Virus record (IMG/VR): IMGVR_UViG_3300002460_000085
Location: 1-39,035 of that record
Source of the DNA: a virus
Length of the DNA stretch: 39,035 nt
Direction: 5' to 3' (one strand)
Positions 26,022 to 31,870 of this stretch are shown here, one piece after another. Below the pieces are notes generated by a model, which was given only the letters and a program-made list of their open reading frames with translations, did no database searches and was not told the origin of the DNA. Every line of letters starts with the position of its first letter. Within the stretch, counting starts at the first letter, position 1. A program made the position numbers and the translations under genes.

Positions 26022-26119
26022 AAGTCTTTATAGGAAACGACGCGAGTGCTCCTGCTCTCATTGGAAAAGGTCCGGCCTTAAGGACTAGAGCTAAGAGAAG
26101 GCAGCGTCGTTTCCTATAA
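26018..26119 (+). CDS. Possible 33-residue basic peptide
   Basis: A GTG at 26018 overlaps the terL stop in GTGA style and opens a 33-codon frame ending in a very basic tail (KRRQRRFL). The frame spans a 94-base inverted-repeat element, so it may be incidental. Confidence 0.3.
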   Translation: MKVFIGNDASAPALIGKGPALRTRAKRRQRRFL

Positions 26120-26120
26120 A
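26027..26120. repeat. 17-bp perfect inverted repeat element after terL
   Basis: TTTATAGGAAACGACGC (26027-26043) pairs perfectly with GCGTCGTTTCCTATAAA (26104-26120) around 60 bases. The interior can form a GTCC/GGAC hairpin (about 26070-26085) and weaker TGCTCTC/AGAG-type pairings. The right arm lies just before the AAGGAG of the next gene. It may be an RNA structure or a very small mobile element; no target-site duplication is visible. Confidence 0.6.
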
Positions 26121-26134
26121 AACAAGGAGACCCA

Positions 26135-28557: not shown

Positions 28558-28725
28558 ATGGTTATTTTGATCCTTCTTGCTTCGACTGTATTGGTTTATT
28601 TCATCTGGGGCTTCCCCGGACTCATTATTGCCTCTATCGTCTGGTTATTGGATCGTATCCTTGCATATGCTGGGTATCGACAAAAGAAGCAACGCGGCTA
28701 TCGCAAGCCTGAAATAGCCGCTTGA
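28558..28725 (+). CDS. Small membrane protein
   Basis: A 55-residue protein with hydrophobic residues 2-36 (a MVILILLASTVLVYF run, then GLIIASIVWLL) and a basic tail. One long or two short membrane helices. It ends within the TTGACA of the following promoter. Confidence 0.55.
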   Translation: MVILILLASTVLVYFIWGFPGLIIASIVWLLDRILAYAGYRQKKQRGYRKPEIAA

Positions 28726-28751
28726 CAAAGATTCTGATAATAGCTTATTCT
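28722..28751 (+). promoter_or_regulatory. Promoter with consensus -35
   Basis: TTGACA (28722-28727) is followed after 17-18 bases by TTATTC/TATTCT (28745-28751). A 13-bp palindrome CTGTTTGAAACAG (28752-28764) lies across the expected start, as an operator would. Confidence 0.45.
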
Positions 28752-28756
28752 CTGTT

Positions 28757-28839
28757 TGAAACAGCGTTCTAACGATTGACCGATTCGCGCCCGGTTGATC
28801 AAGCAAAAGGGGGACTCACTTTGGTGGTTCCCCTTTTTT
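28757..28839 (+). ncRNA. Candidate small RNA between promoter and terminator
   Basis: The promoter at 28722 and the strong terminator at 28805-28839 delimit a transcript of about 80 bases without a supportable ORF. It may be a phage small RNA, or a late-promoter leader whose terminator is overcome by an antiterminator before the head genes. The exact 5' end is estimated. Confidence 0.4.
28805..28839 (+). terminator. Intrinsic terminator
   Basis: AAAAGGGGGAC (28805-28815) pairs with GTTCCCCTTTT (28827-28837) with one G-U pair, followed by further T. This is the best intrinsic terminator in the window. Confidence 0.85.
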
Positions 28840-28919
28840 ATGTCCGGCTAGAGAGCGGAGCTTTTGGAACTGAGTCCTCCTCTGAGTTTCGCTCCTAGCC
28901 AGGCAGTTGTGAATAAAAA

Positions 28920-29777: not shown

Positions 29778-29792
29778 CGGCGGATGGAGTCT

Positions 29793-29855
29793 ATGAAGAC
29801 CAACCACAAGCCCAAAGCCTCTAAGGAGTCCAGTAGGAGTCGAAAGACCAACTGA
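29793..29855 (+). CDS. Possible 20-residue basic peptide
   Basis: An ATG at 29793 follows GGATGGAG and opens a frame encoding 20 residues, almost all Lys, Arg, Ser, Asn and Thr. It lies in the gap before the scaffold gene. Doubtful. Confidence 0.25.
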   Translation: MKTNHKPKASKESSRSRKTN

Positions 29856-29877
29856 ACGACCAACCGAAGGAGATTTT

Positions 29878-30786
29878 ATGCCAGATCCAGTAGCAAATCC
29901 AAACGGAAATGGCGGCCAACCCCCAGCGGGAGCCGGCAATAATCCAGGCGGACAGCAAAGTCAGCAGGGCCAAGAACCGGCATGGTTAAATGCCGTACCG
30001 GAACAGTTCAGAGAAGAGGCGAAGAAGAGTTACCTTCTCCAGAGCGATTATACCAAAAAGACTTCCGAGTTAGCAGGGGAACGGAAGTCCTGGGAGGAGA
30101 AGGAAAAAGGTTGGGCGGCCAAGGAAAAGCAGTGGAACGATTTCAATGCTCGGTATCAGCCGTTTCAACAGCAACTTCAAAAGCATTGGGACAAGATTGC
30201 ACCTATCTTGAATGGCGCCGCAGAGGCGGCCCATCTAAAGGCGCAGCAGAACGCGAATACGAATCCCGCGAATCCCGATCCGTTTGAAGAATTCGATCTT
30301 CTTCCCGCCAAAGAACAGGCCAAGCGACTTGCTGAGTACACGACGCAACAACAGCAGAGCGTCTTTCAAGACGCATTAGGGAAACTAGAGCAAAAGTTCA
30401 ACCAAACGATCGCCGATCATGCGCAGGCATTTAAGAACTACCTCGCGATTCAGACCGATGCGTACGATCGTAAGTTCCAAAACCCGGAACTGAATCTTGC
30501 TGAGTATCTGAAAACGGCACTTGAATTTCAAAATGGGCAAGTCAACCCCCTGGAGGCTGCTTATAACAAAGTGACTTCCGAGGCGACGATGAAGAAGATG
30601 CAAGAGGAGTGGCTTAAAAAGGGCAGGGAAGAGGCGCTATTGGAAATGAAAAATCAGCAGATCACCAATGGCGGCCTACGAAACCCTGCTCCGATTCCCA
30701 CTTTTGGCGCTCAACCCATGACCCGTGCTCAAGTAGCCGAAGCGGTACGCAACGAACAGATCAAGGCCGGTCGTAGTTGGACATAG
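29878..30786 (+). CDS. Scaffold-like protein
   Basis: A 302-residue protein. A Pro/Gly/Gln-rich start precedes long charged coiled coils (ERKSWEEKEKGWAAKEKQW, residues about 67-85, and later LGKLEQKFNQTI). It ends in a basic helix VAEAVRNEQIKAGRSW of the kind that docks on coat protein. Position immediately before the capsid gene is the classic scaffold position. It starts behind GAAGGAGA. Confidence 0.75.
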   Translation: MPDPVANPNGNGGQPPAGAGNNPGGQQSQQGQEPAWLNAVPEQFREEAKKSYLLQSDYTKKTSELAGERKSWEEKEKGWAAKEKQWNDFNARYQPFQQQLQKHWDKIAPILNGAAEAAHLKAQQNANTNPANPDPFEEFDLLPAKEQAKRLAEYTTQQQQSVFQDALGKLEQKFNQTIADHAQAFKNYLAIQTDAYDRKFQNPELNLAEYLKTALEFQNGQVNPLEAAYNKVTSEATMKKMQEEWLKKGREEALLEMKNQQITNGGLRNPAPIPTFGAQPMTRAQVAEAVRNEQIKAGRSWT

Positions 30787-30844
30787 TTTCAGCGGGCGGT
30801 AGGCCAACCGACGCACGAGATTCCGCTCTCGTGTCCCGCTGAAA
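30787..30844 (+). ncRNA. Three-way-junction RNA element before the capsid gene
   Basis: TTTCAGCGGG (30787-30796) pairs perfectly with CCCGCTGAAA (30835-30844). Inside it, CGGT/ACCG (30797-30810) and GCACGAGA/TCTCGTGT (30813-30834, one G-U) form two further helices. The result is a compact three-helix junction in the leader between scaffold and capsid. There is no T tract. Suggested roles are mRNA processing, 5' stabilisation or translational control of the capsid. Confidence 0.6.
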
Positions 30845-30898
30845 ACAAAAGACGGTGCGGCAGTCCACTGGCGGAGTGGTCGAAGATGAGGGAATTTT

Positions 30899-31870
30899 AT
30901 GGCACCGCCTAGCCTGACTTATATCCTCGATAACGTCGGTACGAGCACGATCGAGAAACGACTGCAAGGACTGATCGACGGTTTCTACAAATCTAACCCG
31001 CTCGCTATGCGCCTGTTGCAGCAGGACCGTATCCTAGCCGACGGCGGCAAAGATGTCCGCCAACGCATCATCTATACCCGGAAACCGGGTGGCTCCTATG
31101 CAGGTAGCGATACCTTCGACACGTCGAAGAAGGAAAGCCGCACCGAGATGGTATTCAACTGGAAGCAGTACTACGTCGATATTTCCCTTGACGGCATCGA
31201 TCTCCTAAAGAATGCCGGGGAGTCTCAGATCAGCGATCTCGTCCAAGACGAGATGGACGAGGCGCAGATGACTGCGCCGGATCTGATCGGTGATGATGTG
31301 TTCTTGGACGGCACCGGCAACGGCGGCAAGGCGATCACTGGACTGCGTGCTGCCTTTGATGATGGCACGACCTACACCACCTACGGCGGAATCACTCGAT
31401 CTTCGACTGCGAACACGCCGGGTAAGGCTGTCAGCGGCAACGTGACCACGACTGCGACTACCTTCAGCTTGTCGCAGATGAACACATTCATGGGCACGGC
31501 GACCATCAGCAACCACAAGCCGAACCTGATTATCACTACGCAAGCGCTTTGGAATAAATGGTGGGAACGCGCGCAGCCGGCGCAACGGTTCGGGCCTGGC
31601 GATGCCCGTGGCGCTTTGGCCGCGGTGGGCTTCTCAAGCATCGAATTCAACGGTGCCGAAGTGGTAGTCGATGGGCATTGCCCTTCGGGGAATATCTTTT
31701 TCATCAACACCAACTTCGTCAAGATGGTGATCCACAGTAAGCGCATGTGGGAGCCGACAGGATGGAAGTACCCCACAAATTCGGACCAGGCCATTCAACA
31801 GTTGCTTTGGGCCGGTGAGCTGGTTGTGCAAAGTCCGCGATTGCAGAATCTGGCAACGAACGTGAGCTAA
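30899..31870 (+). CDS. Major capsid protein
   Basis: A 323-residue HK97-fold-like coat protein. It has a helical N-terminus, an RIIYTRKPGGSYAG loop (the E-loop region), a DLIGDDVFLDGTGNGGKAIT spine, a NLIITTQALWNKWW A-domain strand-helix, and a C-terminus reading AGELVVQSPRLQNLATNV. Start ATG 30899 has GAGGGA behind it. The preceding scaffold and the leader RNA element fit high expression of the shell. Confidence 0.8.
   Translation: MAPPSLTYILDNVGTSTIEKRLQGLIDGFYKSNPLAMRLLQQDRILADGGKDVRQRIIYTRKPGGSYAGSDTFDTSKKESRTEMVFNWKQYYVDISLDGIDLLKNAGESQISDLVQDEMDEAQMTAPDLIGDDVFLDGTGNGGKAITGLRAAFDDGTTYTTYGGITRSSTANTPGKAVSGNVTTTATTFSLSQMNTFMGTATISNHKPNLIITTQALWNKWWERAQPAQRFGPGDARGALAAVGFSSIEFNGAEVVVDGHCPSGNIFFINTNFVKMVIHSKRMWEPTGWKYPTNSDQAIQQLLWAGELVVQSPRLQNLATNVS

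Follow-up and report, generated by a model that had tools for sequence, protein, structure and literature searches.

What is the role of a strongly folded RNA segment that lies in the gap between the scaffold and major capsid genes of a phage? The question arose from a viral record 39,035 bases long (the whole stretch analyzed, hereafter the window), derived from a group of uncultured podophages and encoding a P22-like portal. The scaffold gene (29878–30786, plus strand) was assigned from its position together with a weak match to the head scaffolding family phrog_3927 (E = 1e-4). The major capsid gene (30899–31870, plus strand), which is the presumed target of the RNA, was identified by its match to phrog_9953 (E = 4e-57). 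The intervening gap (30787–30898) is 112 nt long, and a scan of this region found no consensus promoter or terminator.

The folded leader of the capsid gene

The initial annotation, made from the window alone, had placed a three-way junction at 30787–30844, and our prediction returned exactly this fold with the same coordinates. The 5' strand of the closing stem P1 (TTTCAGCGGG, 30787–30796) lies directly 3' of the scaffold stop codon and forms 10 bp with the 3' strand (CCCGCTGAAA, 30835–30844). Enclosed by this stem are the predicted hairpin P2 (CGGT-AGGCCA-ACCG, 30797–30810; 4 bp with a 6-nt loop), the 2-nt junction strand J23 (AC, 30811–30812), and the hairpin P3 (GCACGAGA-TTCCGC-TCTCGTGT, 30813–30834; 8 bp with a 6-nt loop), which is supported by both folding and covariation and has a G-U as its outermost pair in the window; these features and those described below are on the plus strand. 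The junction possessed a minimum free energy (MFE) of -29.7 kcal/mol (z = -4.5), which was equaled by none of 200 shuffled sequences. When stability was compared over 58 nt on both strands, about nine other sites in the window folded better and the junction ranked approximately tenth; stability thus did not single it out, and conservation had to decide.

The junction stands as it had been described, but the element continues past 30844 to approximately 30891, taking in a conserved pair of GCGG sites that are complementary to the loop of P3 (L3), the CCGC core of which (30823–30826) was found in all five capsid leaders that we compared. The first site, S1 (30857–30860), corresponds in two relatives (L018 and L020) to the 3' end of the Rfam model discussed below. 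The second, S2 (30871–30874), was recognized by complementarity and lies inside the loop of a candidate hairpin, P4 (CCAC-TGGCGGA-GTGG, 30865–30879). P4 is weak, was placed by hand, and is absent from the predicted MFE structure of the window, although the position of its loop is common to the five leaders. Farther 3' is the sequence ATGAGG (30886–30891), identical in the five leaders, in which GAGG (30888–30891) is the likely capsid Shine-Dalgarno sequence. ATGAGG is located 13 or 16 nt 5' of the capsid start in every leader, always in the same other frame, and a Shine-Dalgarno role gives no reason for the conservation of its AT. We considered a leader peptide initiated at this AUG and rejected it, as the frames span 8–32 codons and have no evident common sequence. 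An intrinsic terminator was likewise dismissed, in agreement with the earlier description, since a T tract 3' of P1 is lacking in all five leaders and the scan detected no terminator in the gap. The window gap also matched no ribozyme, riboswitch, or other Rfam family at E values up to 10, consistent with the earlier failure to recognize a known ribozyme core.

Other folds were noted in the window. A second conserved RNA directly precedes the scaffold gene (29786–29872 in the window; 1909–1990 in L001, 1930–2006 in L018, 2870–2950 in L019, and 2895–2975 in L020); it forms a long nested hairpin, clear in these four relatives, in which an internal-loop motif (GGAG / CCAAC) is repeated, and it yielded no credible Rfam match. 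The gap after the terminase gene (26022–26134) contains 20-nt inverted arms spaced 60 nt apart in a fold that ends just before the ribosome-binding site of the next gene, and the matching gap of contig L029 is without such a fold. The region at 28722–28905 comprises a promoter-like site, a G+C-rich hairpin followed by a T run, and then another strong fold ahead of the 28920 gene; in the matching gaps of L001 and L029, too, a hairpin is accompanied by a long T run.

Conservation and linkage to the int-alpA RNA

Searches of viral contigs with the capsid and neighboring genes provided four relatives, L001, L018, L019, and L020, with capsid identities to the window of 74%, 55%, 57%, and 58%, respectively, and scaffold-capsid gaps of 102–118 nt. 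In all five members of this clade the three-way junction was the predicted MFE structure of the isolated element, and in the relatives its start coincides with the scaffold stop codon or lies close to it. L001 retains the same 22-pair fold as the window with four double compensatory changes, two of them in P1, and the loss of one terminal wobble. These double changes account for 8 of the 13 substitutions that separate the two sequences; at least four doubles are expected from 13 randomly placed substitutions with P = 1.75e-4. In a four-sequence alignment that had been fitted to the model, 95.5% of pair cells held and 11 of the 22 pairs were changed on both sides, compared to 39–49% of cells and 0–2 double-changed pairs when the partners were slid by 1–3 columns. 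The initial annotation had proposed covariation as the check on its fold, and the compensatory changes in the stems bear it out. A covariance model built from only the window and L001 (R1) located the element at the correct place in L019 (31.8 bits, E = 1.2e-6) and L020 (26.9 bits, E = 3.5e-5) within 92 kb, whereas a sequence-only HMM gave 3.1 and 7.1 bits (E = 10 and 0.55) at the same loci. The signal is therefore carried by structure and not by sequence similarity alone.

The conservation is uneven. P2 differs in sequence and length among the relatives, the MFE structures of L019 and L020 have some of the L3 core base-paired within P3, and R1 gave only 6.6 bits for L018 in a restricted search; P1 of L018 is mostly different in sequence and overlaps its stop codon. 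A structure common to all capsid homologues was rejected because a similar junction was lacking in the distant homologues that we read (22–37% identity); in most of these the gap is short, and in BUCT555 and Mx9, where it is longer, it adopts a different fold. When viral contigs were scanned for DNA motifs, only L001 and otherwise unrelated matches were returned, and scans of genome contigs for the element found no relatives.

The int-alpA RNA family (Rfam RF02996) matched three of the leaders over the full length of the model (1–71) and at the orthologous place: L018 with 33.2 bits (E per genome = 1.2e-6), L019 with 31.2 bits (5.5e-7), and L020 with 29.2 bits (1.3e-5), all of which fall below the gathering cut-off of 35.8 bits. 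Three such matches in orthologous gaps are unlikely to be due to chance, and none of 14 control genomes contained an RF02996 match over the cut-off. The window and L001 showed no match to this model even at E values up to 10, so their membership in the family is by linkage, R1 connecting them to L019 and L020 and these to RF02996. A second covariance model derived from six island and Vibrio sequences (R2) detected L001 only at E = 0.14 and did not separate the window from noise, which is too weak for direct placement. A junction of P1 with two hairpins is present in all five capsid leaders, as is a 3' tail site complementary to L3 (CCGC/GCGG); in L018 and L020 this site is aligned with the model's 3' end. 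The consensus junction bases, UA in J12 and GAAAA in J23, both occur in L018; L020 keeps the UA with an altered J23, and neither is found in L001 or in the window, where J12 is 0 nt and J23 is AC. The location between integrase and alpA genes that gave the family its name does not apply here, the RNA being situated between scaffold and capsid. The earlier view of a functional leader RNA that is neither a terminator nor a known ribozyme is supported, with the amendment that it has known relatives.

The chance that the fold is accidental or a functionless remnant may be weighed at this point. In its favor, some nine other window sites are at least as stable; compensatory change, the detection of relatives by structure, and Rfam matches at orthologous places all speak against it. 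Covariation strongly disfavors this explanation, which we regard as scarcely credible.

The third loop, its two candidate partners, and the probable role of the leader

Using the consensus as the probe, we read int-alpA members in islands of E. coli and Klebsiella and in Vibrio phages. True int-alpA RNAs proved to be short leaders that end at a start codon, the same layout as in the capsid leaders. The island RNAs are found between the stop codon of the integrase gene and the start of an ORF of ∼280–320 residues, with a small helix-turn-helix gene following in the E. coli islands (an AlpA match, Pfam PF05930, in L035). In the Vibrio phages the RNA is located elsewhere, 5' of ORFs such as one encoding a T5orf172/MUG113 protein. 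Examples of int-alpA RNAs before endonuclease-like ORFs were seen in the Vibrio phages W08 (MG592671.1; 118113–118182 and 230060–230124) and W07 (OZ196828.1; 59946–60011), and one of these RNAs exceeds the Rfam cut-off with 42.3 bits. The common arrangement is the junction, then S1, and then S2, which precedes the start codon and often occupies the loop of a P4 hairpin. S2 in the islands and in the Vibrio leaders L046 and L051 is itself a Shine-Dalgarno sequence of the AAGG, AGGG, or CAGG type situated 6–10 nt from the start, and in L045 the complementary site nearest the start overlaps the Shine-Dalgarno sequence. In the capsid leaders S2 precedes the start codon by 23–27 nt; it also precedes the likely Shine-Dalgarno sequence, without overlapping it.

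At least two tail sites complementary to L3 over 4 nt or more were present in all 15 leaders from islands, Vibrio phages, and capsid genes, compared to a mean of 2.6 and a maximum of 7 leaders for shuffled tails; for the five capsid leaders alone, the full count was equaled in 3 of 20000 shuffles. These counts refer to loops, sites, and tails placed by hand and to a null that preserves base composition only and ignores relatedness, the island leaders being close kin. The L3/site cores, 4–5 bp in the capsid leaders, were CCGC/GCGG (capsid), CCUU/AAGG, CCCU/AGGG, AGUC/GACU, and CCUG/CAGG. Compensatory change occurs at each of the four core positions, with L3, S1, and S2 varying together.

This joint change suggests a mechanism with two alternative states, a pseudoknot between L3 and S1 and a pairing of L3 with S2. 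In island leaders and in the majority of those from Vibrio, the Shine-Dalgarno sequence would be closed to ribosomes by L3-S2 pairing and made accessible by L3-S1 pairing. For the capsid gene, L3-S2 pairing would bring a folded domain close to where the ribosome lands and so may lower or gate capsid translation; because S2 there is apart from the Shine-Dalgarno sequence, masking would be indirect, and this is the weakest link of the mechanism. A possible trigger is the ribosome finishing the scaffold gene, which could melt P1 next to the stop codon. Such a trigger would not be general, since the preceding annotated gene in the Vibrio leader L045 is on the other strand. Judged from sequence and predicted structure, the leader probably controls translation of the downstream gene. 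On balance, we lean toward the window RNA being a cis-acting capsid leader, a diverged member of the int-alpA lineage that uses alternative L3-S1 and L3-S2 pairing. We offer only tentatively the wider proposal that the int-alpA family as a whole acts in cis as a bistable switch of translation, with L3 engaging either a decoy (S1) or the region of ribosome binding (S2); the switch would be common to island, homing-endonuclease-like, and capsid genes and responsive to a common infection or host-state signal.

The main rival to translational control is RNA processing or stabilization, in which the junction would be cut by, or would shield the transcript from, a host nuclease (e.g., RNase III, RNase E, or RNase J) to leave more capsid than scaffold mRNA. 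Intergenic processing sites are well known in phages, as in phage T7, and this precedent, together with a stable junction at or near the upstream stop codon between operon genes needing unequal amounts of product, speaks for this reading; we nevertheless consider it unlikely. It leaves the joint change of L3, S1, and S2 unexplained, and it gives no reason why relatives whose S2 is at the Shine-Dalgarno sequence precede endonuclease-like and integrase-adjacent genes, so that translational control fits the anatomy better. The same relatives, standing before integrase-adjacent and homing-endonuclease-like genes, argue against the capsid-specific role proposed in the initial annotation, namely a device for producing capsid in excess over scaffold.

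They also bear on a protein operator, by which scaffold, capsid, or another protein would bind the junction and repress or activate capsid translation as feedback. The P22 scaffold regulates its own synthesis post-transcriptionally, and the P22-like portal and the second conserved RNA 5' of the scaffold gene fit this idea; RNA relatives preceding quite different genes exclude scaffold or capsid protein as a ligand for the whole family. An operator of this kind appears quite improbable, and it is not exclusive of alternative pairing, as both could hold. A trans-acting small RNA is suggested by the Rfam type label of int-alpA (Gene; sRNA). The members that we read sit in a short gap ending at a start codon, with S2 at or near the ribosome-binding site, and the gap in the window contains neither promoter nor terminator by the scan, making a trans-acting role very unlikely. 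Our literature search on phage capsid-leader RNAs and int-alpA function found nothing useful; the single paper that mentioned int-alpA by name (PMC12370729) only lists it, among the putative small RNAs of some STEC genomes.

Under translational control, an orphan RNA family would gain a testable function, with the joint change of L3, S1, and S2 supplying an exact mutational prediction. The position before a phage capsid gene is unexpected for int-alpA, and here a known orphan family appears in a new genomic setting with diverged sequence and a new functional hypothesis. If the proposal is true, one RNA control device is common to mobile islands and a phage structural operon.

Comparison with known systems

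Exonuclease-resistant RNAs combine a three-way junction with a downstream pseudoknot. The capsid leader resembles them in overall layout only, a third loop pairing downstream (here predicted from complementarity); it has no sequence link to them, and the downstream partner in the int-alpA relatives coincides with the ribosome-binding site. Riboswitch-type translational control works by sequestration of the Shine-Dalgarno sequence. The leader shares with it one loop having two possible partners, of which one coincides in the relatives with the ribosome-binding site, and differs in that no ligand is assigned here and the int-alpA consensus junction bases are not kept in the window. Compared to the int-alpA RNA itself, the capsid leaders score 29–33 bits against a cut-off of 35.8, with the window and L001 unmatched; their pairing core is GCGG rather than AAGG or AGGG, their S2 lies off the likely Shine-Dalgarno sequence, and the next gene is that for the major capsid protein. 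What they share with it is the P1/P2/P3 three-way junction, including in L018 the UA of J12 and the GAAAA of J23, an L3 with complementarity to a conserved site on the 3' side of P1, and a short gap to the start codon.
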